From positions 20,756-84,755 of the IMG/VR virus record IMGVR_UViG_3300032236_001100: 64,000 nucleotides of DNA; one strand, given 5' to 3'. How positions within the stretch are numbered: the first letter of the stretch is position 1; each line of letters opens with the position of its first letter. Positions 6,691 through 53,933 of the stretch are shown piece after piece. The notes under the pieces are model-generated. The model ran no database searches. It saw only the letters and a list, made by a program, of their open reading frames with translations, and was not told the DNA's origin. Position numbers and translations under genes: made by a program. This stretch comes from a virus.

Positions 6691-6699
6691 GGCAATCAA

Positions 6700-11102: not shown

Positions 11103-12194
11103 ATGCCTCGGCTTACTAAAGGGAAAGTTCCCCTCTTACGGCAGCATTCGAGTGGCCAGTGGACCGTCAGGCTGTCAGGTTTCGACCATTACCTTGGGCA
11201 CGACAAGGAAGCCGCTCAGACGAAGTACGGCGAACTGATCGGCCAGTGGGAGTCACGGGGACGCAAGCCAGTCTTTGAGACCAAGACTGACGGCAAGACC
11301 GTGTCCGAGGTCGCTGACCTCTACCTGGAGCATTGCCGGTCCTATTACGTGAAGCGTGGCAAGGTCACGTCTCAGGTCAAGAACATTGAGCAGGCCCTGG
11401 CGGGAATGGTCGAACTGTACGGCAGTGCCCAGATCGACAGCTTTGGGCCACGCGACATGATTAACGTCATTAACCACTGGATCGAATCAGGAATCGTGCG
11501 CAGGTCAGTTAATGACAGGCATCGGATCATTGCCCAGTTCTTCCGCTGGTGCGGAGTCTGGGGCTACTTGCCGGTGGACGCATGGATGAGAGTCAAGGTC
11601 GTCGAGAGCCAGAAGGAGGGCCGCTCTAAGGCCCCCGACCTGCCGGAGCGCGAGCCGCCTCGGTTGGAGCATGTCCGTGCCGTCCAAGAGATCGTCTGCG
11701 ACCGGGTCTCGGACATGATCGAACTCCAGATGATCACCGGCATGCGGTCCTGTGAGATCTGTGCCATGCGACCGCTGGACATCGACATGTCGGGTGAAAT
11801 CTGGGTCTACACCGTCAGACCGGAATTCAACAAGACGACACACAAAAAAAAGAAACGGGTGGTGATGCTTGGCTCCAAATGCCAGGAGATACTGAAAAAG
11901 TACATCGCCATCCGCAAGCCCGACCAGGAGGTGTTTCGGACCCAGTACAATGGACCTTACACTCCACCGAATTATCGGGGCGTGATCCGGTTCTCGTGCA
12001 TCAAGCTCGGGATACCCATCTGGTTTCCCCACCTGCTGCGTCATCATGCCGCCACGGAGATTCGGGCCAAGTACGGCCTTGACGCTGCCAGGGCCATCCT
12101 GGGCCACTCAGACGTGTTCACCACCATGAACTATGCCAAGCCCAGCCCTGACGCTGAACTGACCAAGAGGGTGGTGAAAGACCGCGAAGGTTGA
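11103..12194 (+). CDS. int: Tyrosine recombinase (phage integrase)
   Basis: This 363-residue protein has the full catalytic set: R215 in MITGMRSCEI, a basic beta-hairpin KKKKR region, H310-xx-R313 in PHLLRHHAATEI, H335 in ILGHSD, and nucleophile Y344 in TTMNYAK. An arm-binding-like N-terminal segment and a SAM-like core-binding domain (about residues 60-165) precede it. It would integrate phage DNA at a host site through a 3'-phosphotyrosine intermediate. ATG at 11103 is preferred because AGGAG lies 9 bp upstream. A likely attP is in the AT-rich gap before it. Confidence 0.93.
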   Translation: MPRLTKGKVPLLRQHSSGQWTVRLSGFDHYLGHDKEAAQTKYGELIGQWESRGRKPVFETKTDGKTVSEVADLYLEHCRSYYVKRGKVTSQVKNIEQALAGMVELYGSAQIDSFGPRDMINVINHWIESGIVRRSVNDRHRIIAQFFRWCGVWGYLPVDAWMRVKVVESQKEGRSKAPDLPEREPPRLEHVRAVQEIVCDRVSDMIELQMITGMRSCEICAMRPLDIDMSGEIWVYTVRPEFNKTTHKKKKRVVMLGSKCQEILKKYIAIRKPDQEVFRTQYNGPYTPPNYRGVIRFSCIKLGIPIWFPHLLRHHAATEIRAKYGLDAARAILGHSDVFTTMNYAKPSPDAELTKRVVKDREG

Positions 12195-21977: not shown

Positions 21978-22535
21978 TCAATCCACGATGGGCAGGTCTG
22001 GGCAAACGTGGCAGTCGTGCCTGTAGACGATCACATGGTCTTTCTTGACGCACCGGGCAGCACCGCAGCATAGTTCCAGCCGCTTGGGGCAAGTCCGTAT
22101 TCGCCTGCCGATGGCATCGCCCATGCCCAGCACCGGCACCGGCGGTTCGATGATGCTTTCCACGGAAGGACACAGGACCGGCCTGCAAGCCATCCTGGCG
22201 ATCTCGTGAGCCAGGTCGATGTTTGACTCAACGTACAGCGGCAAGCCGCTCAGACGGTAAGCCTCGGCCTTCCAGCGAGCCATCTGCTCGAAGCCTGGGT
22301 ATTCGTCGGTGGGCCGCATGACCAGGCGGTAGACCACGAGTTCGTGTTTGGCGAACCAGTCCAGGGTGAGGTCGCGGTAGGAATCGCTTCGGCCCGTGAT
22401 CACCAACTGGATCGGGTGCGTGGGCACGTACAGGGGCCGGGCATTCGCCGGATCGAAGATCCCGCCAGTCGGGTCCTCGCAAAGAATGCCGTCGAGGTCG
22501 AAAGCGGCCTGTGCTGTGTCGTGCGCAAAGATCAT
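21978..22535 (-). CDS. HAD-superfamily hydrolase with C-terminal cysteine cluster
   Basis: HAD motif I is FDLDGILCED (nucleophile and acid/base Asp), motif II is LVITGRSD, and a basic K appears in MARWKAEAYRLSG. Motif III/IV-like YVESNIDLAHEIARM follows; the D of motif IV is kept. The C-terminus has many Cys and His (CPKRLELCCGAARCVKKDH, RHDCHVCP), probably a zinc-binding module. HAD proteins near glycosyltransferases often dephosphorylate sugar or nucleotide intermediates. The substrate is unknown. It overlaps the tail gene start by 4 bp. Confidence 0.7.
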   Translation of the reverse strand: MIFAHDTAQAAFDLDGILCEDPTGGIFDPANARPLYVPTHPIQLVITGRSDSYRDLTLDWFAKHELVVYRLVMRPTDEYPGFEQMARWKAEAYRLSGLPLYVESNIDLAHEIARMACRPVLCPSVESIIEPPVPVLGMGDAIGRRIRTCPKRLELCCGAARCVKKDHVIVYRHDCHVCPDLPIVD

Positions 22536-28300: not shown

Positions 28301-28507
28301 TCCAACAAAACATGGATTAGATGCCGAGTCCAGTTTGATGGTGACAGGCATACCAAAGGCATACGAACCAGGAGGGCAGATATGCGTCTCGCTGAACGTA
28401 AACGTATCGTTTTCATCGGTCGTGTATTCAAGCATGTTCGGCAGGAACGTGCTGTCGCCTGCCGAAAGATTGACTTGCTGGTTGTTGATGAAAATCGAAA
28501 ATCGCAT
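25334..28507 (-). CDS. Tail-tip/baseplate hub-like protein (1057 aa)
   Basis: It follows the tape measure gene, where the distal tail and hub proteins lie in siphoviruses. The first ~600 residues are beta-rich; segments such as FSETHICPPGSYAFGMPVTIKLD and CFVGKIVDISYDYSEDVQWTISYTAMGLKYW resemble phage hub N-domains. The C-terminal third is disordered and repetitive: AANPASAIPGLGTAV-type units, F(V/I)GP units and three copies of a (D/Q)xRSYAxxM/L motif (residues about 910, 945, 975). No lysozyme motif is visible. It has its own promoter-like block. Confidence 0.72.
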   Translation of the reverse strand: MRFSIFINNQQVNLSAGDSTFLPNMLEYTTDENDTFTFSETHICPPGSYAFGMPVTIKLDSASNPCFVGKIVDISYDYSEDVQWTISYTAMGLKYWANLIPVISSYDTPDYTFNLRSDDPNYNPSFSGLQVGQMFKIVLDNHMSKLNAAGIYGYIQADLDAMTIVPPDVINIGGPRLLDALQGVLGSWQCRYCIRVQYDTTTGRNYLRFENAFNYGVTTLAFGVDPIDPAQFTCKPDSSDCYGRVEYRGYSKAEAAILSVKEGTLVPTWTTTQQNNWNWDQFANPAGMVSVGSVSSLSTVDCVCTSDNTQESWTANQWNANKAWIYLQYSSGSGSGSITFAESRRLNANNALSKGGSALVSWNGDIPIVGSSYNRYKIVGTQGTSANVWREYSIANSYVASHLMNSFPQPIPWAVATTMQLIKYPASLIFWTNGSTGGYSEYNTACGPALFEVDKVNGIIRFREPTVKPFNTQDNLNKGGSNVTPPYDVRVVVPYSLGSLTASYPADTSGTQNYSGTFYTATGIARTLTFNDDNWVDPRQASQYQAVCQMLQECYKDVKYNGSVTYMGLYTPAIQPRLGLNFSVNEFAGASQDLGLTAINCPVRVTRIVWNSSPNSDNFTTIMDFNNVKQPATGTSYYVHPAFAAVQAGLTATSIEQALSSNNGYGSTLGMDGEFEGLGVEGMNFGGPSGGLGFGFGMPNGFDGPTAEQNGILNDIFSNDAAGLPMRGQQRGQPLEAANPAAAIPGLGTALQGLAGLGEAQAANPASAIPGLGTAVNGLASLGGNQGQPSANPQQAAQSQPQGSSEFVGPPRIGKGPNGEYAVTPPLKAPSIPQFVGPPAPIEGGPKRPNAAESFVAQRQKAANPEGAPAGKDFIGPKDTRSYAQKMIDKKASQEPTLYPTGGKSQDSSNFVGPRDQRSYAQQLQVRKSNEQAEPSNRVSDSPTGDPYDQRSYAEKMRSRKESPDDGEWNDKGRKAARKMIAGNEQGPPQDTSILEGVLSGPRPLSRNEQEAQKPVDSTLPKKPKKYFDKTLKPDYVLDGPDMPQGVSRAFPNLIDD

Positions 28508-28559: not shown

Positions 28560-31500
28560 TCATTGATTTGTGGCGTTCATGCTGCGTTGCTGCATGATCG
28601 AGTTTCTTGCCATTCGGGCAGCTTCTTCCTGCTCTTTCTTGAGTTTTTGGGCTTGTATTGCACGCGCATTTCCGGCGCGAACAATGTTCTTCATGGTCGA
28701 TGTTGATCTTGATATCGCGCCCATCCACTGGTCAGCAGCATTGCCATCCGCGCCTTTGGCGGCGGCACCCATGAAGTTCTGCTGGATCGACCTTTGAAGC
28801 ATGCGTCTCGCAAGCTCTGTAGCTTGATCCTCCGTGTAGCCAGCCTGCATCACGCGACCCGCTACCCCATTGCCCATCTGCCCCATGATCTCATCGGCAC
28901 CCATCCCTTGGGCTCTCATTCCTGCAACGTAGGCATTTAATTCTGGCCCAAAGTGCTGCATCAGCTGGCCGGTATGATGCTCGAACTGAGCATTTGCCTG
29001 GTTGTACGCCTTCTGCTGCTTTGCGGTCAATTTCTTTTGAACGCCTTCAGCTTTACGCTCTTGAGCGACCGCTTCTCTAACCAGCGGCTGCTTGTTGTAC
29101 GCTTCGTTCAATGCGCCCTGAACGTCGCCGCCACGGCCAGAGACAGAATCATTGGCATTCTTGATGCTCTCTTTAGCCACCCTGGAAGCAAGCTCGGCTA
29201 TTTCTTTTTCGTCCGTTTTCCCAAGACCTTCCTTGAGGTGCTTGGTGATGATCGGAACTAAATACTCCTCAAGCTGCTTTTCATTGGCACCTTCGCTCAT
29301 GGCCTTGAGCGTATTGACATCCAGACCGCGACGACCCATTGAGCTTTCGATTTGCTTGGCTTCAGCTTTTAGCTTGTTTTCTTTTTTGGTTTTGTCGCTT
29401 TCGGCTTCTTCTTTTGCCTTATCTGCCTTTTTATCAATTCGCTGCTTGGCATTCCCAGAGACTTGGTCCGTCTCAATTTGAAGCACCGCTTCGGGCACAA
29501 CCCTGTCAATCACGTCTTGCTTGATATCGTCGCTAATAGACTTGACGGAATTGACGATTGCCGCGATCTTTTCTTTGGCGGCTTCTTCGATCTTTTTGCG
29601 AGCCGTGTCCATACCGGCTTCGTCCAGGTCTCCCTTCCCTACGGCCATCTCTAGTTCTTCGGCCTTCTCATCCATTGCCTTTCTGACTTCTCTGTTCACG
29701 TTGCTCACGGCGCGGTCGATGCGGCGTTCTCTTTCTTTCATGGGTGCATTGGCCACCCTTTCGGCTTCAGCCTTGGCATCAGACTTCCGCTCGGCGACAA
29801 CCTTCTTGAAATCGTCTAGGGCTTCCAGTGGTTCCTTGGCACCGTCAGCCACTTTCCTGGCTTCCTCCTGATCGGCCTTGTCGAACTTTCCAATAGCCTC
29901 TTTGACCTTTTCCTCTTCCTCGAACGCAAAATCATCGCCCGAATAGCGGTTCTTTTTGGCGTTCTCCGAGGTGATCTCGCCTGCAAATCCGCTCAACTTG
30001 GCAACGTCAACCCCAGTAGCCTCCAGTGGTTTACGATTTCGTTCCAGGGCTTTCGTGAATGTCTTCTCTGACCCCGGAACGGCAGCCAGGTAGTCAGACA
30101 TGATTTTTGTGCCACGCTTTGACTGTTCTTCATTTATGCGATTAACTTCGCCTTGGGCTCTTTCTAGCGCAATAGCAATCCCAGCGGCTTCTTCAAGCGT
30201 TGCGCTCTCAAGTGACTTTTCGTGTCGCTTCACGTCTTTCATTGCCTGCGACCGCTGGCTTTTCTCCTTATCTGTAAGAAGCGATTCGTCCTGTGTTAAA
30301 ACGCGCTTGATATTTTCTGCGCCAGTAATTTGAACGTCTTCGCCATTTGGACCCTTGACAGTCTGGGCTCCTCCATTAGATGCCAGCAGCTTCTTGGCTG
30401 ACTCCTCTGCCTGCATCTCGTCTACAGTTTTTTCTTCGAGTGCTGCTTTCAGTAGCTTTTGTCGGTCTTCGAGGTCATTAAGCTGAACCTCAAGCTCATT
30501 TAGCTGACGCTTGTCTACATGAAAAACATAATTCATGGCGTTGAGAACCTTGATCTTGGTTTCAACGCTTTCAATCTGTCCTTCGAGCGTAGTGAGATCG
30601 ACTTTCTTGAAGAATTTGGAGATCTGCGGTCCCCACATGGTCAAGGCCATGAACGCCGATGAAACCAAGCCGATGCCAGCGGCCCACTTCATGGCCTCTT
30701 CGTGATTGGCACCCCCAGCTTTGGCAAACTCTTCCGTCATACCCGGAAGGTTGTTCATGATCGCCAGGATGCCGTAGTTCAAGTCCTGTGCGGCCTGCGA
30801 AGAATAATAAATCGCTCGCGATAAGTGCTGAGAACGGGTCGAGGCTTCCTCCATGCCCTGCCCTGTCTTTATCAGACTATCGGCAAGTTCCTTGACGCCA
30901 GCACCAGACCTGCTAGATAGTTCAATTAAGCCCTGCTCTGTTTTTCCTAGATTGATATTAGCAGCAGACTGGCTTTTGGTCGCCGCCTCAAGGTTCGCTA
31001 GGTTTGCCGCAGAAGGCAGCTTGTTATATCTGTCTTGTGCTTCGATCAGTTCGCTTTGGGTTTTAGCTGCCTGCTTTTGAGCGTTCAAATAATCACGAAC
31101 CGTATCGGCAACCTCTTTGAACGTCACGCCAGAGGCAGAAAGTGCGGTTGCTAGATTCTTTTCAAGTGCGATGACTTTCTTATCGCTATCGGCAACATCA
31201 TCAACAAACTTGTCCCGCATGTCCGCGAGTGATTTTAGCTTATTGACATCTGCTGCGGCACCTTTGGCTGACTCTTGTGTAATTGCCCGAAGTGTATCGA
31301 CGAGCTTCTTTTCTTTTTCGACACGATCTTCTTTTGCTGCTGTAAGTTCCGACTCTGCTCTCGCGACATTTCCGGCTGAAGCGGCTACTGCGGATTCGTT
31401 TTGTTGTCGTAGCCTGGACTGTTCTTCCAAAGATTCCTTGGCAAGCTCCAAGCCTTTCTTTTCAGCCTCTTCTTTTGTTTTTAGCCTTGCCTTTTCAGCA

Positions 31501-33320
31501 GCTTCCTCTTCACGAATTGCTTCTGAGCCAATCTGGGAAGCGGTCTTGACTTTGGTGGCCGTGTCGAGAGCAGACTTTGCCTGTGCGTCATCTGTAGCAA
31601 TCGCGTTCTTTTCGAGTTTCTCTCGCTCTTCGGCTATCGAGTTATACTTTTCGACAGCTGTACCCAGTGCGCCAACAGCCAATGCGCGGTCATGAGCAGT
31701 TGCTGCCGTGTTGTGCTTGTCGTCTTCCTCAATAGCTTTTGCGGCGTCCAGGTACGCTCTTTTGACATCCTGTTCTGCTGCTGCCAGGTCGTGCGAATTT
31801 TTAATAACGTCGCGCACATTGACCGCAGCATTTGCCATCGCGTCATTATTGTTTGTGGTGGCCTTCGTGTCGGCAATTACGGCAGCTGCATGCCTTGCTT
31901 TCGCCTCGGTCAATATTGGCTCAAGCTGGATCTTCTTTTCGATGTCTTGGAGCGACACCATGCTCAGGCTGTTATATGCTTTTTCTACTGCCGCAAGATG
32001 CAATGTCGATTCGGTTAGCTCCTTACGTGCAGAATCTAATTCTTTGGATGTGGCAGAAACGTCGCCACGGCTTGCCGAAGAAGCCATATTGGCATCATGA
32101 GCATCAGACTTGTTTTTAGCTAAGTCGGAGTCAATAGATTTTTTTGCCTCGTCCGCAAGGATGCGACTTGCTTCAGCCGACTTCTTCAATTCTTCCTTGC
32201 GGTCCAGATCGCGCTGGATTATCGCATTGCGAAACGCTTCAATCCTGCGCTCGTTTGATTCTTTTTCTTTCTTCTCTTCTTCATTTCGGATCTTTTCTTG
32301 CTCTTCGGCGGCACGCTTGGATTCAGCCGTAAGGATGCGGTTTGCTTCTGCTTCATTCTTGGCATCTTCCTTGCGGTCTAGATCGCGTTGGATTATCGCG
32401 TTCCTGAACGCTTCACGCTTACGCTTGAGCGATTCCTTTTCCTGCTTCTCTTGATCCTTGCGTATCTTTTCTTGTTCTTCGGCTGCACGCTTCTCCTCAT
32501 CCGCGAGGATGCGGTTTGCTTCTGCTGCCCTCTTTAGTTCTTCTTTGCGATCCAGGTCGCGTTGGATTATTGCATTCCTGAACGCTTCCGCTCTGCGTTT
32601 AAGCGAGTCCTTCTCCTTCCTCTCCTCTTCCCTGCGTGCCTTTTCCTCTTCCTTGTGTATCTTTTCCTGTTCGTCTGCTGCACGCTTCGCTTCAGCCGCA
32701 AGGATGCGATTTGCTTCGGCCTCATTCTTTGCGTCTTCTTTGCGTTGAAGGTCTCTCTGTATTATCGCGTTGCGAAATGCTTCTGCCCTGCGTTTAAGCG
32801 ATTCCTTTTCCTGCTTCTCTTGGTCCTTACGAATCTTTTCTTGATCGGCGGCTGCACGTTTCTCCTCAGCCGCAAGGACTCGATTCGCTTCAGCCGCATT
32901 CTTGGCGTCTTCTTTCCGTTGAAGATCACGTTGGATTATTGCATTCTTGAATGCTTCTGCTCTGCGTTTAAGAGAGTCTCTCTCTTTCTTCTCCTCATCC
33001 TTGCGTATCTTTTCCTGCTCATCAGCGGCACGCTTCGCCTCCTCCGCAAGGATGCGATTTGCTTCGGCTCGCTCCTTCTCTGATTTGGCAATAGCCTTAT
33101 TGCTCGTTTCAACAATCTTGGCGTATTTGGATACGTCGCCTGATAATTCTTGGACCTTTTCGATCCAATCGTCAATATTTAACGCATTGTTCCTGAATTG
33201 ATCTGTAGCTTTGTTTAGCTCCAGTACAAAGTTCTCGATCTTTTCTTTTGCAGCATCGACAATGCTTCCACCCTGAGCCTGGATGTCAAGAACGATCTGC
33301 TGATTAAACTGGTTGCTCAT
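28560..33320 (-). CDS. Tape measure protein (1586 aa)
   Basis: The length, long alpha-helical composition, place between tail-tube genes and hub, and one hydrophobic patch (AAGIGLVSSAFMALTMWGPQISKFF, about residues 890-915) mark the tail length-determining protein. Residues about 80-400 form six near-identical tandem repeats of about 47-58 residues built on EANRILA...KRAA.EQEKIRK...KRRAEAFRNAIIQRDL.RKE. At about 0.15 nm per residue the tail would be near 240 nm. The rest is charged coiled coil. It overlaps the upstream gene by 4 bp. Confidence 0.9.
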   Translation of the reverse strand: MSNQFNQQIVLDIQAQGGSIVDAAKEKIENFVLELNKATDQFRNNALNIDDWIEKVQELSGDVSKYAKIVETSNKAIAKSEKERAEANRILAEEAKRAADEQEKIRKDEEKKERDSLKRRAEAFKNAIIQRDLQRKEDAKNAAEANRVLAAEEKRAAADQEKIRKDQEKQEKESLKRRAEAFRNAIIQRDLQRKEDAKNEAEANRILAAEAKRAADEQEKIHKEEEKARREEERKEKDSLKRRAEAFRNAIIQRDLDRKEELKRAAEANRILADEEKRAAEEQEKIRKDQEKQEKESLKRKREAFRNAIIQRDLDRKEDAKNEAEANRILTAESKRAAEEQEKIRNEEEKKEKESNERRIEAFRNAIIQRDLDRKEELKKSAEASRILADEAKKSIDSDLAKNKSDAHDANMASSASRGDVSATSKELDSARKELTESTLHLAAVEKAYNSLSMVSLQDIEKKIQLEPILTEAKARHAAAVIADTKATTNNNDAMANAAVNVRDVIKNSHDLAAAEQDVKRAYLDAAKAIEEDDKHNTAATAHDRALAVGALGTAVEKYNSIAEEREKLEKNAIATDDAQAKSALDTATKVKTASQIGSEAIREEEAAEKARLKTKEEAEKKGLELAKESLEEQSRLRQQNESAVAASAGNVARAESELTAAKEDRVEKEKKLVDTLRAITQESAKGAAADVNKLKSLADMRDKFVDDVADSDKKVIALEKNLATALSASGVTFKEVADTVRDYLNAQKQAAKTQSELIEAQDRYNKLPSAANLANLEAATKSQSAANINLGKTEQGLIELSSRSGAGVKELADSLIKTGQGMEEASTRSQHLSRAIYYSSQAAQDLNYGILAIMNNLPGMTEEFAKAGGANHEEAMKWAAGIGLVSSAFMALTMWGPQISKFFKKVDLTTLEGQIESVETKIKVLNAMNYVFHVDKRQLNELEVQLNDLEDRQKLLKAALEEKTVDEMQAEESAKKLLASNGGAQTVKGPNGEDVQITGAENIKRVLTQDESLLTDKEKSQRSQAMKDVKRHEKSLESATLEEAAGIAIALERAQGEVNRINEEQSKRGTKIMSDYLAAVPGSEKTFTKALERNRKPLEATGVDVAKLSGFAGEITSENAKKNRYSGDDFAFEEEEKVKEAIGKFDKADQEEARKVADGAKEPLEALDDFKKVVAERKSDAKAEAERVANAPMKERERRIDRAVSNVNREVRKAMDEKAEELEMAVGKGDLDEAGMDTARKKIEEAAKEKIAAIVNSVKSISDDIKQDVIDRVVPEAVLQIETDQVSGNAKQRIDKKADKAKEEAESDKTKKENKLKAEAKQIESSMGRRGLDVNTLKAMSEGANEKQLEEYLVPIITKHLKEGLGKTDEKEIAELASRVAKESIKNANDSVSGRGGDVQGALNEAYNKQPLVREAVAQERKAEGVQKKLTAKQQKAYNQANAQFEHHTGQLMQHFGPELNAYVAGMRAQGMGADEIMGQMGNGVAGRVMQAGYTEDQATELARRMLQRSIQQNFMGAAAKGADGNAADQWMGAISRSTSTMKNIVRAGNARAIQAQKLKKEQEEAARMARNSIMQQRSMNATNQ
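32123..33083 (-). repeat. Tandem repeat array inside the tape measure gene
   Basis: Six imperfect in-frame units of about 141-174 bp encode the repeating EANRIL...AFRNAIIQRDL block. Each unit keeps NAIIQRDL nearly unchanged. Units differ in the short charged insert (for example KEEEKARREEERKEK in one), consistent with unequal recombination followed by drift. Confidence 0.85.
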
Positions 33321-36641: not shown

Positions 36642-39092
36642 TTAACCGAAAAATCGATTCTTGTTACGTGAAACGTTACGACGGCCCCCTTGCCTGCCTT
36701 GTGGTGCTGGCCGGTTGTCTGCGGCACCGTAGTGAGCCGTGCGAGCCGTTCCGATAGCAGGCACCGAGGCCAGCGTAGGTGTGTAGGCAGCAGCGAATGC
36801 CTGATAGCACTTGCTGGCATCGCTCCAGACGCCCCAGGAGCCTGCCTGACGAGCCCTGAGAGCCGAGTCGAGCGAACTTAGGCTTGAGCCCAGGCTGTTG
36901 TCCTGAGCCCAGCCAGCGAGCTTGTACGTGCCGCGACTGAATGCCGGTGTACTTGCCAGGGCAATGCCATTGGTATCACGGCCCTTGGCCTGCCATGCTG
37001 CAAAGCTCTTGGTCGAAACGTCAGGCCAGTAAAATGCCGAGTTCTGGGTGCTGATCTGGTAGGCGTTGTAGTTGACCTGAGCCTGGGTTGTCACATCGAA
37101 CGAGCCGGAACTGAGTCGTGCCGAACGAAGCGGCGTGCCCTGGTAGTCCACACCCGTCCCTGGTCGGTTTACCACCAAATTGTGATCAATCAGGGCTTTC
37201 TGGTTCGGCAGCTTGTTGCCCAAACTGTAAGAGCCAGCATCAACTGCCGTGTTGTGCCGGATTGCGATCCAGTTGTGGGCATAAGCACTGGTGCTGTCCC
37301 AATGAACCCAGTTAACGCCATCGTAGTTTGTGATCGCTACGCGCTTTTCGTTTACACCGGAATTGCCTACGAAGATATTGTACGAAATCCTGGCTTCCGG
37401 CTTGTCGCTATCAGCCGCATCAAGCACCGAACTGTAAACACCTGCATCTTGAAACACGCACTTCTTGAGTGAGACCGTGCTGCCACCACTGAAGTGCGAG
37501 GCATTTCCTGCGAATATCGAGTACCAGCAACCACCCCCGCCTCGCTGCTGGATACCACTCAAGCAACCATCGAACACCCAGCACCCATCCACGATCAAGT
37601 CATGAGACATCGTGGAAATGTAGCCATTGTGATTGTAGAAGTCGTTATTGCTGGGATCGGTCAAGTCTTTCCAGCCATTGTGGCTAAACAGCGTGTCTTT
37701 GAACGTCCAGTTGCCACAGTGCGCGATGAAAATGCCCGACACATGCTTCGAGCCAGGAGCAGCACTGGCCAGGGCCGTATGAATGATCGACTTGTGTATC
37801 ATGCAGCCAATTGAGGCGATAAACTGGGCCGAACCATAGCCAGCCACAAGACAAATGTTCTGGAACAAGCAATCGCTGATGATCACATAGTCTTGAGTCT
37901 TATTTGTGACCCATGTATCACCGTTGGCGATCAGGCTCGTGTCGCGCACGAACGCCAGTCCGCGAAAATACTGGTAAGGCCACGTTCCATAGGTGGCTCG
38001 GCCACCGTTGGTCGTGTCTCCCTGGCCAAACCAGAACCAACCGTTGGTGTTCATGCCAGGATCAGACGAGTCCTGAAGCACGGGACGAGTACCAGGGTCA
38101 GCACCGTAGGCTGGGTTCCAGTAGCTCTCGAACAGAGTCGGCGTGGTCAAGCCCGTGCCCCAGTGCGCCGTGACCCATTGGTCGGCAGGCCATGTATCGC
38201 CCCTCAGCCAGCAGAACCGTACATTCTTCTGACTGGAACTGACCTGCGAATCAGCGTAGTTCTTGGTTTTATAAGGCTTGGCCAGTGTGCCAGCATCACT
38301 GCTGTCTGTACCATGACTGTATGAGATATACACCGTCTTGGAGAACGTGAACGATTCGACGGCCAGGAACCCGCTCGCGTTGACGACCGACTGGTTATCT
38401 GCCGTGGTTGAGACTGCTGCCGTGCCGTTGCCCAGGCCATCGACGATCAGGTTGGCCGGTGCCGAAATCGTGACCGCAGACCCGCATGGCAGGGGCGAAC
38501 TTGTCCGTACATTCACCTTGAGGCAGACCGACTGCGGTGCCCAGGTCGACCCGCTGCCATTGAAGCTGGTCAGAGTGTAGCTTGTCGCGCCCGTGCTGGA
38601 GTAAGTACCAACGAGGTGAAAGTTCGTGTATACCGGGCTTTGCGTGGCCGCATAGATTCGCAGAGTTTGACCGGCCTGCAAGGCTTTGCGCCAACCAAAC
38701 GTCACGGAACCCGATGCTGGGACCACCACTCCCGACTCATTGGAGTACGAGTAGATTGGTGGCGAGGTATAGATCTCATTGCCACTGGCATCGGCAATCG
38801 TCACCAGAAATACATAGCTGCCAGCCGAGATGCTGCCGCCCGTGGTGGGAGGCAACACCCAGGCAAGCGGCATGTTGTAGTCTTCGCATCGAACTCCCAT
38901 GATCTCGGCGGCAACGCCATTGACCTGAATCGTCAATCCTGCGTCGATTCCAGGGATCTCGTCGAAGAAACCACAGTCGGTGGATCGCACCAATGCCGAC
39001 TGGCCGACCGCAACTCCAGCCTCGAACTGAAGGCGAACATTTTGCCCGTCGCCAAGGACGGTGGCCGATGTCAGCTGGAATTGCCGTGGCAT
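36642..39092 (-). CDS. Tailspike-like protein with parallel beta-helix (816 aa)
   Basis: After a ~230-residue N-terminal part with a fibronectin-III-like stretch (GSYVFLVTIADASGNEIYTSPPIY...LRIYAATQSPVYTNFHLVGTY), the middle ~420 residues contain repeated N/G/S-rich strands (VIISDCLFQNI, WTFKDTLFSHNGW, LIVDGCWVFDG, VSLKKCVFQDA, ISYNIFVGNSG) typical of a right-handed beta-helix. Such spikes often bind or cut surface polysaccharide. No catalytic pair could be identified. ATG at 39092 has weak ribosome binding. Confidence 0.72.
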   Translation of the reverse strand: MPRQFQLTSATVLGDGQNVRLQFEAGVAVGQSALVRSTDCGFFDEIPGIDAGLTIQVNGVAAEIMGVRCEDYNMPLAWVLPPTTGGSISAGSYVFLVTIADASGNEIYTSPPIYSYSNESGVVVPASGSVTFGWRKALQAGQTLRIYAATQSPVYTNFHLVGTYSSTGATSYTLTSFNGSGSTWAPQSVCLKVNVRTSSPLPCGSAVTISAPANLIVDGLGNGTAAVSTTADNQSVVNASGFLAVESFTFSKTVYISYSHGTDSSDAGTLAKPYKTKNYADSQVSSSQKNVRFCWLRGDTWPADQWVTAHWGTGLTTPTLFESYWNPAYGADPGTRPVLQDSSDPGMNTNGWFWFGQGDTTNGGRATYGTWPYQYFRGLAFVRDTSLIANGDTWVTNKTQDYVIISDCLFQNICLVAGYGSAQFIASIGCMIHKSIIHTALASAAPGSKHVSGIFIAHCGNWTFKDTLFSHNGWKDLTDPSNNDFYNHNGYISTMSHDLIVDGCWVFDGCLSGIQQRGGGGCWYSIFAGNASHFSGGSTVSLKKCVFQDAGVYSSVLDAADSDKPEARISYNIFVGNSGVNEKRVAITNYDGVNWVHWDSTSAYAHNWIAIRHNTAVDAGSYSLGNKLPNQKALIDHNLVVNRPGTGVDYQGTPLRSARLSSGSFDVTTQAQVNYNAYQISTQNSAFYWPDVSTKSFAAWQAKGRDTNGIALASTPAFSRGTYKLAGWAQDNSLGSSLSSLDSALRARQAGSWGVWSDASKCYQAFAAAYTPTLASVPAIGTARTAHYGAADNRPAPQGRQGGRRNVSRNKNRFFG

Positions 39093-39106
39093 ATGTGTTT
39101 CCCTTG

Positions 39107-39637
39107 TCAAACAGTCTGGAACGTGTCGTCGGACATGGTGCTTGGAACCCGATATCCAAACTGTCCAGAAAGTTGACGCCGCTTATCGGGCACGTTGTAC
39201 GATTGATTTGCAGATCGGCTTAACCGCGAAAGCCAGGGCAAGCAAAAGCCACCATACTCCCGGCTGTCTTTACTCATAATCGCATTTAAAGCAATGGATT
39301 CGAGTTGATCTAGAAGATTATAGGCAGTTTCCTGCCATGTTTCATGGACCTCGAAAATCAGCGAGTAGGGAACGATCCTGATTCGGGTGCCTGGAGTGCC
39401 GTCATTCTCGAACCGCACCCCTTGAACCTCGAAGATTGCCGCCACGCGATGCTCGGACGACAGCCAGTTTTCATCGGCCTTGCGACCAACCGCAATCGAG
39501 TCGAATGCGCTGGTTTTGTCAAGCAACTGCGTCAGGCCAAGGCCATAGTCGGTCCCGTAGAATGCATCAGCATCACGGAACGGGCCACGCATGGACCGTG
39601 CGAGGTTCCAGTAGTTTGGGTTTGAGGGACGAATCAT
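39107..39637 (-). CDS. Tail-associated protein (176 aa), paralogue of the 35447 gene
   Basis: Shares the DAFYGT(D/N)xGxGxxQLL block, the (R/E)YGGFxxPW block and LSGQFGYRV ending with the protein at 35447-36067 but is shorter at the N-terminus. Its start overlaps the 39634 stop (ATGA). No enzymatic motif. The best guess is a second copy of a connector or spike-anchor. Confidence 0.62.
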   Translation of the reverse strand: MIRPSNPNYWNLARSMRGPFRDADAFYGTDYGLGLTQLLDKTSAFDSIAVGRKADENWLSSEHRVAAIFEVQGVRFENDGTPGTRIRIVPYSLIFEVHETWQETAYNLLDQLESIALNAIMSKDSREYGGFCLPWLSRLSRSANQSYNVPDKRRQLSGQFGYRVPSTMSDDTFQTV

Positions 39638-41844
39638 TCAATGCGTCCCATGATGATGAACGTGTCAGAAAGACTGGGAATGGTAGGCCATGCCGTGGCA
39701 AAGGTCAGCACCTTGGTAACGCCATCGTAGCCCGAGATCCGGCGAGCCATTCCCGAAAGAGCCCCACTGGTGAACAGCAGGACCGAACCCACGTAAAATC
39801 CACCCTGGCTGGAGAGGTACGAGTCGCCCGTGAACGAGGTGGTGCTGATCGAGCCGGATGCCACCGAAGACGATAGGTACGTCGAAACTTCGGTCGAGAG
39901 CAGGTGAAACACCGGCATGCAACCCGTGATCGAGAACGAAAGCCCAACAAGGTCGGCGTTCATGACGGCAGCAGGAACTTGGGACCAGACCCAGGTTTGC
40001 CCGGTGGCATCGTAAGTTGCTGATCCACTGACCGAACCGGATACACCGTTCGCGTAATAGGTGGCCGAGACAGTACCCGAAGTCACTTCTTGGCCGGTGG
40101 CGATGCTTACGAATCGGCCAATCGGCAGGTTACTCAGATTGGCATTGCGTGGAACCACCGGATTTGCTCCCAAGATGCGAGGGCGTGCCTCAGTGACGTA
40201 AAGGAAGTATTTGGATACCTGCCAGATCGTGGGCTGGCCGACCTGAAGCGAAGAAGCAACCCCTGCCGAAATCGTGATGGTGGACGTTAGATTGGCAGTT
40301 CCAACCACAAGGCTTGAGCCAATTCCTGCTGAAAGCGAAACAGCCGCCGATACCGCAGGAGTTCCTGTCCTGAGCGTCGATGCAATCCCTACCGACTGGA
40401 GCAGCGATGCCAGCGTGATCGGTTGCCCAACCGCCGATGTCGCGGCAATCCCAGCTGACACCTGAACAGTCGAAGTTCTGACCGGGCTCCCGACAACGGC
40501 AGTCGATGCGATTCCAGACTGAACTGTTACTGAAGCCGTTGCCGATACGGTGCCAACCTGACCAGTGCTTGGGATTCCAGCTGAAGCCAACAACGAAGGG
40601 ATCACGCTGGGCTGAATCGCACCAATCGAGAGGAATCCCTGCGAAACTCCTAATCCTGTTCCCGGCTGCACGGCCCCAATCGACACGAAGCCAACCGAAG
40701 GCACTCTGGCTGCGACCGGCGATCCTGCGACCAGAACTGAAGAAATGCCGCTTGAAGAAGAAACCTGAGTCCCAATGACCGGGTTTCCAACATTTAAACT
40801 GGACGCGCTTCCAATTTGGGAAACAACAGTTGTGTTAGACGTTACGCCGCCAGAAACAAGCGAAGAAGCGATTCCCGACGAAGCGAAAATGGGCGTGTCA
40901 GTCTTTGGTGATCCAACGACTAATAGAGAAGCTATTCCGCTTGATGTTACGGCCAGACCACTGATCGTTGCCTGTCCAACAATTAATGATGATTGTCCAC
41001 CTATTGAAGACGAAACATTCGGAATGGTTGTTGTAGAACCAACAACGCTTTGCGATGACACGCCAACGAAAGAGTTTTGTGTTAATGGTACAGATGGCTG
41101 CACAGCACCAATGCTGACATATCCCAGGCTTATGCCAGAAGATGTGCCGGGCTGAACTGCACCGATAGACAAATAGCTTGGCTTAGGAGGAACTAATATT
41201 GGATACCATATAGCGGACACTCTGAATCCGCTATATGCCGTTGCAGGCGAAACAGACCATGCTACGTTAAGAGTTGATCCCGTAGCGAAGGTGCCATAAG
41301 CTAGGCCGATCCCTGTGCTTTTTCCAGATACAAACGTGGAGGAAGCCAGCGAATAGCCAGTGGTATTGGTTGATAGCGATGTTGGCCCGACAAGATTCCC
41401 ACCATAGTCAGTACCCCACATTCCATCAAGCAAAACTGCCAAGCATTTGTCGGATGATGTGGGAATGCCAATCCCAAAACTATCAGTAAAATTTTGCGAT
41501 GCGTCAGTTTTGAGCCCTGTACTTACCTGATAGAACGCACCAACGCCCGAAAATCCAACCGCAGCTATTGAGGGATACCCCGAAGCTGTGGAGCTTATTG
41601 TTGTTGCTGTGAACGTGTGGCCGGAACCTACCGTAGGATTTGCGCAAGAATAAAGATAAGCTCCGTTAGACGAATTTCCTACAAGGGAATAAGTGTTGCC
41701 AAAACTATCGGTAATAGAAACGGCAGCAGCTGTGGAAACACCCAGTACCAAAAACGTCGCGCCGGTAGTATTAACTGCCGACGTTGTGACGCTCTTGCTA
41801 TTGTTGCTGCTGGCCGAAACGCTAAATACCGAAGCTATTGCCAC
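39634..41844 (-). CDS. Repetitive virion protein (736 aa) with beta-type repeats
   Basis: The N-terminal ~200 residues are Ser/Thr-rich beta sequence. Residues about 250-560 are about a dozen 21-residue repeats around SSGIAS.LVVGSP.....V. The C-terminal ~60 residues match the small protein at 36079. Four (Y/F)xSIGA(V/I)QP units occur among the repeats. The start is a GTG after the beta-helix gene's stop. Fibre shaft with variable repeat number is the most likely role. No catalytic motif is seen. Confidence 0.68.
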   Translation of the reverse strand: MAIASVFSVSASSNNSKSVTTSAVNTTGATFLVLGVSTAAAVSITDSFGNTYSLVGNSSNGAYLYSCANPTVGSGHTFTATTISSTASGYPSIAAVGFSGVGAFYQVSTGLKTDASQNFTDSFGIGIPTSSDKCLAVLLDGMWGTDYGGNLVGPTSLSTNTTGYSLASSTFVSGKSTGIGLAYGTFATGSTLNVAWSVSPATAYSGFRVSAIWYPILVPPKPSYLSIGAVQPGTSSGISLGYVSIGAVQPSVPLTQNSFVGVSSQSVVGSTTTIPNVSSSIGGQSSLIVGQATISGLAVTSSGIASLLVVGSPKTDTPIFASSGIASSLVSGGVTSNTTVVSQIGSASSLNVGNPVIGTQVSSSSGISSVLVAGSPVAARVPSVGFVSIGAVQPGTGLGVSQGFLSIGAIQPSVIPSLLASAGIPSTGQVGTVSATASVTVQSGIASTAVVGSPVRTSTVQVSAGIAATSAVGQPITLASLLQSVGIASTLRTGTPAVSAAVSLSAGIGSSLVVGTANLTSTITISAGVASSLQVGQPTIWQVSKYFLYVTEARPRILGANPVVPRNANLSNLPIGRFVSIATGQEVTSGTVSATYYANGVSGSVSGSATYDATGQTWVWSQVPAAVMNADLVGLSFSITGCMPVFHLLSTEVSTYLSSSVASGSISTTSFTGDSYLSSQGGFYVGSVLLFTSGALSGMARRISGYDGVTKVLTFATAWPTIPSLSDTFIIMGRIE
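40165..41082 (-). repeat. Tandem 63-bp repeats inside the 39634 gene
   Basis: In-frame units of about 21 codons encode the repeating GIAS..VVG.P motif. They are diverged at the DNA level but keep reading frame and spacing, so the array can expand or contract without a frameshift. Confidence 0.75.
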
Positions 41845-49049: not shown

Positions 49050-50837
49050 TTAAAGCGTAGGCCCATCGGGCGGGTTGATTACGTCTTCGATATCAAGGCT
49101 ACGACTGGGGATTTGTGCGGCAGGCGCGCTCGGTGCCAGCAGGCTGTCAGTGCCACCCTTGTCTGCAATGCCGCCCCCACCAGGGCCGATAATGCCTGGC
49201 GAGCCTGGTGGCAGCACAATCGTGGGCATGACCGTGTGCTTGTATTCCACCCACTGGTCGATCTCGTTGCAGAAGTCTTCGTATTCTGCGTCGGTGCGAC
49301 CGGGCAGTGACAATCGCACAATCGTCTTGAGATATTCTGATTCGATGCTGGGCAGCGTACCGGCACCCATCGCCACCTGCTGCAATCGACTCATGACTTG
49401 CGTCACTTCATCAGCGGTTTGCAAGTCGAACTTGCGAGGGTACGTGACGCTGACCGTGTCTTCGTCCATGTCGCCGTGCGGCTGGATCTCGCCATTGCTC
49501 ATCACCCAGAGCGCATACTGGGCAATCAGTCGTTCTGCCGAGTTCAAGACAGCGGCCAGGCTGGAGAGCAGGTCGTTGCCTTCACGGAAGTCAAAAGCCA
49601 TCGCAGCTGCCGAGACAGCCTTGTTTGACGAGCCTGAGAGAGCCGCCTCGCGGTCGGCTTCACGCAAATTTGCCTCAATGGTCTTCTGAATGAACTCCAT
49701 GCCATCCTTCGGAAAGTTCACCGTACTCCAGTGAATGGCATTGGTGCCGTCCTTGTTACTCCAGATCGGCAGGATGCGTTCAGGCCCAACCGGGATCGTG
49801 TTGTCGCCTGCAAGGTACTTCTCTGGTCCCTGGAGCATGGGGAACGCCTGGGTTGTGTTGCCCAGGATCTGTTCCGAGGACAGGTTGTAGACTTCACGCT
49901 GGCGTTCTGCGATAGACTCGTAACGCGACTGGCCGACGTTCTTACAGCGTGGCTTCTTGCGGTCGAAGATCCGCACAATCGGTGGCCTGCCATACGAGTA
50001 GGTGCCACTGTCAAGCTCGATACCTTCGTCCGAGTACAATGTCCAGCCATCTTGACGCCAGTGCCGGTAGTTCCAGCGGAACTGCAACCGGACAAAGCTC
50101 TGCTGGATGGTCGAATCTTCATCGACCAGTTCTCGAACCAGCACTTCGCTGTATTGCCGGTTGGGAAACAGCTTCCACCACAGCACATTCTCGGGCAGGT
50201 AGTAGTTCACCACGCACTTATCAAGACCATATTGCCGCTCATCGGCCTTGGTCATGATCTGCACGTCTGGCGGTGCCTGGGGATGGTCAAACACGAGGTC
50301 CATCTGGCCAAGAACCAGGAACATGGGTGCAAACTCGTTCTGCATCCAGTGGTCGATGTTGGTGCCGCAGCCATCGACGTTCTTCCACCATTCGACGACT
50401 TGATCTGGACCCGTTCGCCCAACTTCCTGAGCGTAGATTCGACTCAGGTGCTTCTCGATAGACCTCTGCACCAGTGGTGGCACCGGCGTGCGTTCCCGTC
50501 GCAGCTCGAACGGATCGACTGCCGGTGCATCATCACGAGGATCGGGATATTCTCGCGGGTGACGAATCAGGTTGTACCGGCGTAGCTGAATCCGATAGAC
50601 GTTGGCAATAGTGCGCTCGGGGCGTGCAGCCGCCGCACCAGGCACAACACGCTGGTAGCTGAACTCATAAGGAAACTCACCATACGTGGCAAACCGATAG
50701 CGGTTGCCGCCTTCGAGCGAGTCCAGCAAAAAGTTCCAGCGATCCACATGCTCCAGGTATTCACGCGACCGTCTCTGGATGATCTCCAGGTTTCGATCGA
50801 GAACCGTATTGGCATGTGTCGGTGTATTCACTGGCAT
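49050..50837 (-). CDS. Portal protein (595 aa)
   Basis: It follows the terminase directly and precedes the scaffold. Sequence features fit a portal: an RNRYRFATYGEFPYEFSYQRVV N-terminal region, a long wing domain, the stem region KDGMEFIQKTIEANLREADREAALSGSSNKAVSAAAM, and a Gly/Pro-rich C-terminus. Twelve copies should form the dodecameric DNA entry ring and bind TerL. Length is at the upper end of normal. The ATG is adjacent to the TerL stop (TAAATG). Confidence 0.85.
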   Translation of the reverse strand: MPVNTPTHANTVLDRNLEIIQRRSREYLEHVDRWNFLLDSLEGGNRYRFATYGEFPYEFSYQRVVPGAAAARPERTIANVYRIQLRRYNLIRHPREYPDPRDDAPAVDPFELRRERTPVPPLVQRSIEKHLSRIYAQEVGRTGPDQVVEWWKNVDGCGTNIDHWMQNEFAPMFLVLGQMDLVFDHPQAPPDVQIMTKADERQYGLDKCVVNYYLPENVLWWKLFPNRQYSEVLVRELVDEDSTIQQSFVRLQFRWNYRHWRQDGWTLYSDEGIELDSGTYSYGRPPIVRIFDRKKPRCKNVGQSRYESIAERQREVYNLSSEQILGNTTQAFPMLQGPEKYLAGDNTIPVGPERILPIWSNKDGTNAIHWSTVNFPKDGMEFIQKTIEANLREADREAALSGSSNKAVSAAAMAFDFREGNDLLSSLAAVLNSAERLIAQYALWVMSNGEIQPHGDMDEDTVSVTYPRKFDLQTADEVTQVMSRLQQVAMGAGTLPSIESEYLKTIVRLSLPGRTDAEYEDFCNEIDQWVEYKHTVMPTIVLPPGSPGIIGPGGGGIADKGGTDSLLAPSAPAAQIPSRSLDIEDVINPPDGPTL

Positions 50838-53800
50838 TTAGAAAAGCCCCTTGAAACTTGTTCGCCGGAATTCCAGTTCCACTTTTTCTTCGTCGGGTTG
50901 AATCATCAGGTCGGTCAGGGCAAACACCATCGCGTCCATCCGGTTAGGCGACGGTCCACCTGGCTCGAAGTCGCACATCTCGGATTCGAGCTTGGGCAGT
51001 TCGCCAACGATATGGATCTTGCCCTGCTCGGCCAGCGCACCAATTGGCTCGGCTCGCACATATTTCGACCGGCTGGCATGCACCCGCTTCTGCACGATAT
51101 TCGGGTTTACAGCCAGCAGCACGTCTCGCACCATGTCGCCGCCATGATTCGATTCCCAGACCACACTATTGGCCTGATGCCGACCATACGCTTCAGCTAC
51201 TGCCCTGCCCCACGCATCAGGGGAGCCCGATGTCGAGTGATCGCCCAGGATATAGCCGTGGCCATCGGTCCCCAGGCCAGCTACCACAATTCCTGCCTCA
51301 TCACCCTTGCCAGCCTCGGTCGGCATGCCATGCACAAACTTGGCCATGTCGCCAATCTTGCCTGCCGGGTCCACGCCAACCACGACCTTCTTGATATCCA
51401 CGCCATAAGGAACCGCTCGCACACGCAGAGCATCCAGTTGCTCCTGATTCCAGAGTGCGTTTTGGTTCTGGAGCAGCACCTCGGCATGCAACTCCTGACG
51501 ACCGATGCGTGTTCCCTCATATTTGGAGACAACGCTCTCGAAGAACTTCTCTGGCAGATTGTGCCGATTGGCATACGTGGAGGCACGCGACATCACCGTG
51601 AACTTGTCGGCAATAATCGCTCTAAGCGTGGGCGTGGGCTGAGGCGTTGTCGATACTACGATCTGGGGATTAACACCAAGACGCATGCCCAGCAAAAGAT
51701 TATCCCACACCGCAGCTTGGGCCTTTGACCATTTGCAGTTGTGGGTCAGGATGCCGTTTGCAAAATACTCGTGTTCGCCTTCGACCTCGATGTTATAGAC
51801 CGGGCTTCTTTCGGGAAGCCTCTCCACGCTCACGCTTCTCGGCCCAACGCTGCCTTCACGGCAGGAGGTCAGGCTTTTCAGTGTGCTGCCCGGCTTCACA
51901 TTCGCTAGTGGAACCCATCCTTCACCCTCAACCCACACAGGATGCCCAGCAGTACCGACAATGGAACTCCCATCGTCTGCTATCAGGCGATACACAACGG
52001 CTGAATCTGTTGTTTTCCATGCCGCAACGACTGGTCGATAACCAGCACGAGTCAGCACCATGTCGCCAGGAATGACCTGAGAGATTGGCTTATCAGAATT
52101 AACGCAAGTGATTACAGTGTCAGGAGTTAGACACAGTTCGTCGCACCAAGCAAAGTGATGCTGCGGTCCGCGCAGCTGGTCGGGCTGTTCGCCTGAGTAG
52201 ATGTATGCGACCGATCCGTTGGGCCAAACGACCTCGGCTTTCGACGGGATATAGACCGGCGTGAACCAAGGTGGCGATACCGCCAGCAGACCCGACGCAC
52301 CCTCAATTTGCACACGCCGAACTTCGCTGACCGTCTCATTGACCAGAGCAATGCGTATCTGTTCGCCACGGGCAGCGTGTGACTCAACCTGATAGCGAAT
52401 CCACTCGGCAGCAGATCGGGTGTTGTGCGTTGGGATCATCGCCTTGCCAGCCAGGTACATCCTGTTGGGCGAATCTACCGAGATGCATCGCATGAGCTTC
52501 GGCTGGATACGACGAATGCCGACAATCATCCGCTGACGGATCTCCAGGGTGCGTTCCGTGAGATCCTTGAATACCCTGGCTTTACGAGGCAGCGAGAATG
52601 GGTTGAGTAGCGATGGACTCCATGTCACGCGATACTTCGGGCCGTAGTCTTTGCCATTCAGCGTTGCTCGGCCAACGCTCAGGACAGGCTTATCGCCAAG
52701 CGTGCAGACAAGTTCCTTGACGAACTCTGCCAGATGCTCATGCTTGGTGCAGAATTCCACGGTCAGACGACCGGGATCAAAGTATCCATCGCCATCACAT
52801 AGGCCACGCAGTAGTTCAAGACGCTGCTGCACGCTTGCCCTGAGATACCTGCGATCAATATGAAAGTCTCTGGCACCTAAGCTTGTCAGCAGGTCAGAAA
52901 TGCCATAAATGCGTATCCTGGTCTGGCCAGCCGCAACATTCCGTTCGCATGATTCAAACCTGTAACCGTCTTTGGCTAGGCACGACTCGACATGCTTGTC
53001 GTCGAACTCACCGTTCCAGCTGCCTGCCGTTACGTCGTGGTCTCGCTTGCTGCCATTGGCAACGTAGTAGCCCAAAGTCCAAGGCTTGACCGGCAATTCA
53101 ATCTCAGGTAGCTGGAGCGGCCTCGTGCATGGGATCGAGTGGTTGTTGTCCTGACGTTTGCCAGTAAATTGCGTGTCAACAATATCCTGCGTAACCTTGA
53201 CGGTTGGGCCTTTGGAGTTCTTGCGAACCTTGGCTTCGCCTGCCCTATAGCCACCAGCATTTCGGTGCTTGGCATAGGCCGTTCGGCAAACGCCTACCGT
53301 TGTTGATGCGGCTCGCTCAGACATGCCCGAAGCAATCAGTGACGCCATCCGCTCAATTTTGTCTCGGCTTACCCTCATGCCGTTGCCAAGCACCTGCTTG
53401 GAACGCCATTTGACCCAGTCTTCCGGGAAGTCCGAGGAATCCTCGTATTGTGATCGCAGGTAGGCTTTGCGGTCGGCATGGGTCCATGTCACCCACTGGT
53501 GATCGCTGCATGCTTCAATCGTGCTGCCATCCGAAAACTCAAGCTCGTAGGCGACTTCAGGAACCTCAAACGGTGAAATGCTTGTGACTTTGCAAGGCTT
53601 GCCTTGCTCGTCGAACACCTCGTCGCCAACACGCAGCTCGCCCATCGTTGACCAGCCGGTTGGCGTGGCAATCGGCGTTTCGACCGAAAGCAGCTTACCT
53701 GCCGAACGACCTGCCATGAGCAACCAAGCCAGCCACTCGCCAACAGGTGGTCGTTGATGGTCAAGGGCGCGTGGATGCTTCTTGCATGTCTTGGTTTCTG

Positions 53801-53933
53801 GGTTGTACTCACTGCACATGCAGGGTTTACCGTACCAGTCATAGACTGGACCCAGCTTCTTGATCGTCTCTCGCCTGCGAAGTTCGAGTTCAGCGAGAGC
53901 GCGTTGCTTATGCGTGAGTGTGTCGTCAGACAT
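50838..53933 (-). CDS. Large terminase subunit TerL interrupted by two inteins (1031 aa)
   Basis: Without the inteins the protein is about 475 residues, a normal TerL. Walker A is AGRSAGK (residues 74-80) completed by T505 after the first intein; Walker B is HFAWCDEL (593-600), with D598-E599, and CKW continues at 733 after the second. The C-terminal nuclease domain includes VVVGVDPAGK and NRMDAMVFAL. TerL cuts concatemers and drives DNA into the head. Both splits sit in ATPase motifs, so splicing must finish before packaging. Portal lies downstream, a putative TerS-like gene upstream. Confidence 0.92.
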   Translation of the reverse strand: MSDDTLTHKQRALAELELRRRETIKKLGPVYDWYGKPCMCSEYNPETKTCKKHPRALDHQRPPVGEWLAWLLMAGRSAGKLLSVETPIATPTGWSTMGELRVGDEVFDEQGKPCKVTSISPFEVPEVAYELEFSDGSTIEACSDHQWVTWTHADRKAYLRSQYEDSSDFPEDWVKWRSKQVLGNGMRVSRDKIERMASLIASGMSERAASTTVGVCRTAYAKHRNAGGYRAGEAKVRKNSKGPTVKVTQDIVDTQFTGKRQDNNHSIPCTRPLQLPEIELPVKPWTLGYYVANGSKRDHDVTAGSWNGEFDDKHVESCLAKDGYRFESCERNVAAGQTRIRIYGISDLLTSLGARDFHIDRRYLRASVQQRLELLRGLCDGDGYFDPGRLTVEFCTKHEHLAEFVKELVCTLGDKPVLSVGRATLNGKDYGPKYRVTWSPSLLNPFSLPRKARVFKDLTERTLEIRQRMIVGIRRIQPKLMRCISVDSPNRMYLAGKAMIPTHNTRSAAEWIRYQVESHAARGEQIRIALVNETVSEVRRVQIEGASGLLAVSPPWFTPVYIPSKAEVVWPNGSVAYIYSGEQPDQLRGPQHHFAWCDELCLTPDTVITCVNSDKPISQVIPGDMVLTRAGYRPVVAAWKTTDSAVVYRLIADDGSSIVGTAGHPVWVEGEGWVPLANVKPGSTLKSLTSCREGSVGPRSVSVERLPERSPVYNIEVEGEHEYFANGILTHNCKWSKAQAAVWDNLLLGMRLGVNPQIVVSTTPQPTPTLRAIIADKFTVMSRASTYANRHNLPEKFFESVVSKYEGTRIGRQELHAEVLLQNQNALWNQEQLDALRVRAVPYGVDIKKVVVGVDPAGKIGDMAKFVHGMPTEAGKGDEAGIVVAGLGTDGHGYILGDHSTSGSPDAWGRAVAEAYGRHQANSVVWESNHGGDMVRDVLLAVNPNIVQKRVHASRSKYVRAEPIGALAEQGKIHIVGELPKLESEMCDFEPGGPSPNRMDAMVFALTDLMIQPDEEKVELEFRRTSFKGLF
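51738..52133 (-). mobile_element. Mini-intein (132 aa) in TerL Walker B
   Basis: The first residue is C601 (CLTPDTVITCVNSDKPISQVIPGDMVLT, block A), block B is GSSIVGTAGHPVWV, block F is PVYNIEVEGEHEYFA and block G is ILTHN; the next extein residue is C733. These are the standard class 1 residues (C1, TxxH, HN, +1 C). There is no endonuclease insertion. At 132 residues it is near the minimal size known for splicing, so it relies on the host population or recombination for spread. Confidence 0.9.
52422..53693 (-). mobile_element. Class 3-type intein (424 aa) with LAGLIDADG domain in TerL Walker A
   Basis: It begins at L81 directly after GK of Walker A (no Cys/Ser at position 1) and ends at N504 before T505. 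The class 3 WCT residues are visible: intein W67 (block B:12, in SDHQWVTW with H65), C403 (block F:4, MRCISVDSPN) and T422 (block G:5, PTHN). Two LAGLIDADG-like motifs occur: LGYYVANGS (N in place of D) and LLRGLCDGDGY. A helix-turn-helix lies between splicing and endonuclease parts (residues about 108-150). Confidence 0.88.

Follow-up and report, generated by a model that had tools for sequence, protein, structure and literature searches.

Intein insertions in the large terminase subunit (TerL) of phages have been described between the Lys and Thr of Walker A (K^T) and at Walker B (Kelley 2016, PMC5050341). Here, we analyse a TerL precursor with putative inteins at both ATP motifs. The gene is in a stretch of DNA of 64,000 nucleotides, which we refer to as the window, that is part of an 84,755-base IMG/VR virus record classed as linear. 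Intein 1 of this TerL resembles the mycobacteriophage TerL1-a inteins in being inserted between the invariant Lys and Thr of Walker A, and class 3 inteins such as intein 1 are also present in mycobacteriophage TerLs (PMC5050341); however, the window TerL has a class 1 mini-intein at Walker B in addition. The TerL1-e inteins of mycobacteriophages are also at Walker B and group with class 3 (PMC5050341), while intein 2 of the window TerL is a class 1 intein. Thus, intein 2 does not belong with TerL1-e, i.e. class 3 Walker B inteins related to DnaB-b, and has only the region of insertion in common with them.

Three further systems are close to this locus. The DnaB protein of M. smegmatis (PMC6195587), similarly to the window TerL, is an ATPase whose P-loop is interrupted by a class 3 intein, with a class 1 intein at another site of the ATPase domain. 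However, DnaB is a helicase, its class 3 intein DnaBi1 is a mini-intein while its class 1 intein DnaBi2 has the nuclease, which is the reverse of the situation here, and the site of its second intein is a DNA-binding loop and not Walker B. The TerL of cyanophage Mic1 (PMC7156551) also has two inteins, a large one with a nuclease domain and a small one. By contrast to intein 1, the Mic1 intein starts with Cys (PMC7156551) and gave no full match to the class 3 profile, and the small Mic1 intein interrupts the nuclease domain at DH^C, while intein 2 is at Walker B. Finally, the class 3 DnaB inteins of M. chimaera and M. smegmatis (6rix, 6bs8; PMC7664689) match intein 1 in His65, Trp67, the block F Cys and the THN motif, but have no nuclease, while intein 1 has a LAGLIDADG domain and an extra three-helix insert.

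The frame of the TerL precursor gene (53933..50838, minus strand) is open throughout its 1031 codons and encodes terminase ATPase, terminase nuclease, intein splicing and LAGLIDADG domains, with the Pfam terminase N and C domains flanking and interleaving with the intein and LAGLIDADG domains (Table 1). Computed removal of residues 81-504 and 601-732 gives a normal TerL of 475 aa. Using this joined TerL in TBLASTN, we found 103 phage records in which a single place covers at least 80% of it; among the matches listed, it aligns as one uninterrupted piece with up to 46% identity. Because the terminase domains interleave with intein and LAGLIDADG domains, and because the joined TerL is uninterrupted in relatives, the inserts are more than chance. 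The positions of the inserts and the uninterrupted relatives also agree with the proposal in a first-pass annotation of this DNA that neither ATPase motif is contiguous before splicing. Elsewhere in the window, an integrase gene at 11052..12194 suggests a temperate phage. Five very large ORFs downstream of the head genes (28560..33320, 25334..28507, 22532..25177, 36642..39110 and 39634..41844) have no PHROG match at E 0.001.

Table 1. Features of the TerL locus, in window coordinates
Feature	Coordinates	Strand	Basis or remark
TerL precursor gene, two in-frame inteins	50838..53933	minus	1031 aa; terminase_6N, terminase_6C and intein domains
N-extein, residues 1-80, ending with the Walker A stretch GRSAGK (53694..53711)	53694..53933	minus	Empty site GRSSGKT in L002
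Intein 1, class 3, 424 aa, LAGLIDADG nuclease domain	52422..53693	minus	Kinship to 6rix/6riy/6bs8, alignment, model
Intein 1 W67 (block B position 12; W of WCT)	53493..53495	minus	25/25 in alignment, 78/78 in census
Intein 1 extra three-helix insert, residues 105-145	53259..53381	minus	Among 25 relatives, common only to L077
LAGLIDADG motif 1 (TLGYYVANG), usual catalytic Asp replaced by Asn (N213)	53052..53078	minus	
LAGLIDADG motif 2 (LLRGLCDGDG), acidic D302 retained	52785..52814	minus	
Intein 1 C403 (block F position 4; WCT nucleophile)	52485..52487	minus	Aligned to the catalytic Cys of 6rix; 25/25
Intein 1 T422-H423-N424 (T of WCT, then C-terminal junction HN; +1 is T)	52422..52430	minus	
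Middle extein, residues 505-600, from the Walker A T to the Walker B stretch CDEL (52134..52145)	52134..52421	minus	
Intein 2, class 1 mini-intein, 132 aa, without nuclease	51738..52133	minus	
Site in intein 2 with about 600 extra bases, including an out-of-frame HNH, in L002	51852..51857	minus	6 nt in the window
C-extein, residues 733-1031 and stop, beginning with the +1 Cys; nuclease domain inside	50838..51737	minus	
Portal protein gene, directly downstream of TerL	49050..50837	minus	phrog_145, E 3e-35

Intein 1 comprises precursor residues 81-504 with the junctions GRSAGK^LLSVETPI...IPTHN^TRSAAEW. Its boundary is set by the empty site in the sister contig L002 (IMGVR_UViG_3300032242_002717), in which Walker A is uninterrupted (GRSSGKTRASAEW), in agreement with the first-pass annotation, which had placed a 424-aa intein there, between the GK and the T. 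An intein counts as class 3 if it lacks the N-terminal nucleophile and has Trp at B:12, Cys at F:4 and Thr at G:5 (PMC3196547). Position 1 of intein 1 is Leu, and A, L, M, Q or G is found there in aligned relatives. The nearest solved structures are the class 3 DnaB inteins 6rix, 6riy and 6bs8 (E 1.3e-23 for M. chimaera 6rix and 9.6e-21 for M. smegmatis 6bs8), and W67, C403 and T422 align residue by residue with the WCT residues of 6rix. In a 25-sequence alignment, H65, W67, C403, T422, H423 and N424 are invariant. A profile scan of viral contigs identified at least 582 relatives of intein 1, 80 of which were kept; 78 of the kept sequences had clear ends, and by simple motif checks the W is present in 78/78, the C in 77/78 and the T in 78/78. 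The predicted model (mean pLDDT 90) has the HINT splicing fold, matches PI-SceI-type inteins over the full length (E 1e-16 for PI-SceI) and superimposes on the class 3 DnaB inteins with 0.9 Å over 69 columns. In a quick tree, intein 1 groups among the class 3 P-loop inteins of phage TerLs. It has no close relative. Thus, the suggestion that intein 1 is a class 3 intein, based on the lack of Cys/Ser at position 1 and on W67, C403 and T422, is supported by structures, alignment and census, and the alignment to class 3 families that had been proposed as a check agrees with it. Separately, block B of intein 1 has a Cys at position 62 (C62; 53508..53510), a position that is Asp or Gly in other class 3 inteins and Cys in 12/25 aligned sequences; C62 is a candidate redox disulphide partner for C403.

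The LAGLIDADG domain of intein 1 has a catalytic acid in one of its two motifs, i.e. D302 is present while N213 replaces the Asp of motif 1. Among the 25 sequences, the catalytic position of motif 1 is D in 13 and N in 12, and the Gly preceding it is replaced by Ala in intein 1 only. Because 12/25 sequences have this Asn, N213 may be the mark of a subfamily rather than of decay, and an initial verdict of a dead nuclease was softened for the same reason; whether the domain cleaves DNA is uncertain. The extra three-helix insert appears to be helix-turn-helix-like in the predicted model. We also noted a P-loop class 3 intein in contig L050 (frame from 3299) in which both LAGLIDADG motifs are degraded while the WCT residues are intact.

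Intein 2 comprises precursor residues 601-732 with the junctions FAWCDEL^CLTPDT...ILTHN^CKWSK. The 132-aa Walker B intein of the first-pass annotation is, therefore, present and begins at C601 as stated, but its site is CDEL^C, which is one residue past the DE and not directly after it. The proposed class 1 assignment, which was made on C1, HN and a +1 C, holds: intein 2 has Cys1, the block B residues T61-A-G-H64, H131-N132 and the +1 Cys, and it is related to the gp41-1 intein in sequence as well as in fold. Specifically, gp41-1 is the nearest solved structure (E 2.7e-8 by sequence), and the predicted HINT fold of intein 2 (pLDDT 95) matches it with a TM of 0.85. Because intein 2 has only 132 aa, there is no room for a nuclease. 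In comparison with the copy in the sister contig, dN/dS is 0.11, indicating purifying selection and consistent with a retained splicing function; such constraint is expected if TerL depends on the splicing of intein 2.

The sister phage L002 has a different set of inteins in TerL. The spliced L002 TerL and the window TerL are identical at 405/477 columns (85% for the exteins); however, in L002 Walker A has no intein, while Walker B has two class 1 inteins. These are intein X (334 aa), at HHYAW^C...RN^CDEL, and a longer form of intein 2 (331 aa), at CDEL^C...HN^CKWSK. The two are at 5520-6521 and 6534-7526 of the contig, and the extein between them is four residues, the CDEL of Walker B. The middles of both inteins are formed by HNH_3 genes with Cys-rich finger-like motifs in another frame; the nested genes are complete (5597-6475 and 6746-7468) and score 72 and 55 bits out of frame. 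We initially considered the low-complexity middles a possible new domain, but this is ruled out since they are the out-of-frame reading of an HNH gene. Among seven viral-contig matches to tandem inteins of the form N/CDEL/CL...T, only that of L002 is real, and the others are an unrelated protein.

Hidden HNH genes, recognised by sequence pattern and not by Pfam score, are also present in TerL inteins of Tetrasphaera phage TJE1, Acinetobacter phage Highwayman and contigs L048, L078, L103 and L105. The TerLs of Tetrasphaera, Highwayman and similar phages do not represent the same insertion site, because their class 1 intein is in the nuclease domain. The frame offset of the HNH is identical in 7/8 elements. 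Given the HNH proteins and the codon usage of the window phage, the chance of the intein frame being open is 4e-5 to 0.17 per element; therefore, the open intein frame over the nested HNH gene is very likely being kept. Similar nested HNH genes were observed in L052 and L055. We claim no priority for out-of-frame HNH genes inside inteins. An HNH gene out of frame within a non-splicing insert of phage methylases (ShiLan) was described in 2025 (PMC11855218), and this insert is open in the host frame as are the L002 inteins; however, ShiLan has no detectable splicing domain, while the L002 elements are class 1 inteins.

The comparison of the two copies of intein 2 points to their recent history. 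Between the window and L002, dS is 0.42 for intein 2 and approximately 3.7 for the exteins, a saturated value of which only the contrast is meaningful. Similarly, at positions with the same amino acid, codons are identical at 85/116 positions in intein 2 vs 163/386 in the exteins (p = 4e-9). Because dS of intein 2 is low while the surrounding gene is saturated, intein 2 was probably exchanged recently between the lineages, long after they split. The exteins adjoining the site also show somewhat higher conservation, which weakly suggests co-conversion, and the low divergence of intein 2 could be due in part to local constraint. A search of the rest of the virus record of the window for HNH_3 genes gave no match. 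With two copies to compare, the HNH gene may have been lost from the window intein 2 rather than gained in L002, and homing probably moved intein 2 between lineages.

A class 1 profile scan of class 3 loci showed that at least four other contigs (L082, L107, L078 and L099) encode a TerL-like protein combining a class 3 intein at Walker A with a class 1 intein near Walker B. L082 has the sites and classes of the window TerL, i.e. its class 3 intein interrupts GK^S, and a class 1 mini-intein of 146 aa is inserted at DEI^CKW. In L107, a class 3 intein at GK^T is accompanied by a 133-aa class 1 intein at W^CDE. L078 also has a class 3 intein at GK^T, and its Walker B intein is of class 1, contains an out-of-frame HNH and has a first residue that is ambiguous by one Cys. 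The TerL-like protein of L099 (frame from 429) apparently has three inteins, one of class 3 at the P-loop and two of class 1, near Walker B and in the nuclease domain. In L103/L104 and L105, the partner of the class 3 intein at Walker A is of class 1 and lies in the nuclease domain. No second intein was present in the ten class 3 proteins of isolate phages that we examined. Judged from these sequences, the double-intein TerL arrangement is real but not unique. Other proteins with more than one candidate intein came up as well: a 641-aa MuF-type-head-like protein in L046/L047 (frame from 3200) with two small class 1 inteins, a 1898-aa portal-like ORF in L017 (frame from 6103) that has two LAGLIDADG-looking inteins and adjoins an uninterrupted TerL, and a 1304-aa ORF in L097 (frame from 2788) with a class 3 profile match of ~1088 residues, which perhaps represents two class 3 inteins or a long insert.

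Based on these data, we suggest that the window encodes a single TerL precursor that would require two splices and that carries two separately acquired selfish inteins, a reading to which we assign a probability of about 0.87. In this model, C403 of intein 1 would attack the bond between Lys80 of Walker A and Leu1 of the intein, the N-extein would then shift to the +1 Thr, and cyclisation of Asn424 would restore GKT. Intein 2 would splice via Cys1 and the +1 Cys to give FAWCDEL-CKWSK. Before both splices, Walker A and Walker B are split, and the precursor would not hydrolyse ATP. The two inteins would have been acquired separately as selfish homing elements, intein 1 keeping a possibly impaired LAGLIDADG domain and intein 2 stemming, by recent exchange, from an element that had the out-of-frame nested HNH as its nuclease, absent in this copy. 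The boundaries, the classes, the predicted fold, the empty sites, the recent exchange and the nested HNH genes in L002 are all read from sequence; that both inteins splice, and that the unspliced precursor is inactive, is what we infer from these features. Patchy presence, the difference between the sisters and the recent exchange of intein 2 all argue for selfish behaviour.

Several other explanations would account for parts of these observations. Because the window represents a single metagenomic virus record, the insertions might be assembly or sequencing artefacts. However, both are in frame over 556 codons, are at known intein sites and have high-confidence predicted folds, and the same pair recurs at the same sites in the independent contig L082; we reject an assembly artefact on this recurrence of the two-site architecture, and regard an artefact of either kind as extremely unlikely. 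Slightly less far-fetched, but still very improbable, is that the boundary of intein 1 was misplaced and that it belongs to class 1 or class 2, or that it no longer splices. Its position 1 is Leu and its splicing is deduced from sequence, which leaves some room for this idea, but the WCT residues occupy the positions that define class 3 and are invariant among relatives, the boundary is fixed by the empty site in L002, and the THN and the +1 Thr are intact. We reject class 1 and class 2 on the WCT positions together with the kinship of intein 1.

A different possibility is that the intein pair forms a regulated gate in which splicing responds to a condition, e.g. redox via the class 3 Cys. Such a gate has precedents, since oxidative stress makes splicing of the class 3 DnaBi1 intein of M. 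smegmatis conditional (PMC6195587) and such control was proposed for the two-intein TerL of Mic1 (PMC7156551), and the block B Cys62 of intein 1, with its counterparts in 12/25 sequences, would fit with it. However, a switch that benefits the phage should be conserved, while the intein set differs between the sisters and is missing in relatives, whose TerLs are uninterrupted. Moreover, mycobacteriophage TerL inteins spliced readily in a reporter (PMC5050341). When we looked for conserved presence of the pair across the phage lineage, as expected for a conditional pair, the inteins were absent or different in relatives. The IMG/VR part of this absence is biased for Walker B because the search pattern QHHFAWCD favours TerLs uninterrupted at that site, but the search of phage records with the 475-aa TerL is free of this bias. 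Thus, the idea in the first-pass annotation of a sharp control point on packaging is not borne out, because the inteins are missing in nearly all relatives and the sets differ between sisters, and we consider a regulated gate unlikely. By contrast, selfish homing explains the pattern without further assumption.

We also think it reasonably probable, although with clearly less confidence than in the double-splicing precursor itself, that inteins use Walker B in this TerL lineage as a stacked landing site. L002 would have the pair with nested HNH genes, in which CDEL is an extein of its own that is joined by two splices, while the window would keep one exchanged, HNH-stripped copy together with the class 3 intein at Walker A. 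The four-residue extein of L002 raises the question of how little extein two neighbouring splicing units need between them and whether their order is obligatory. With inteins of class 3 and class 1 each occupying an ATP motif, the window TerL would make it possible to compare the rates and the order of splicing within one protein, and also the activity of half-spliced motors. Together, the window and L002 offer a snapshot of intein turnover, in which one site is unoccupied, two inteins are stacked, and the same element occurs in full, with its hidden nuclease, and as a nuclease-free copy.
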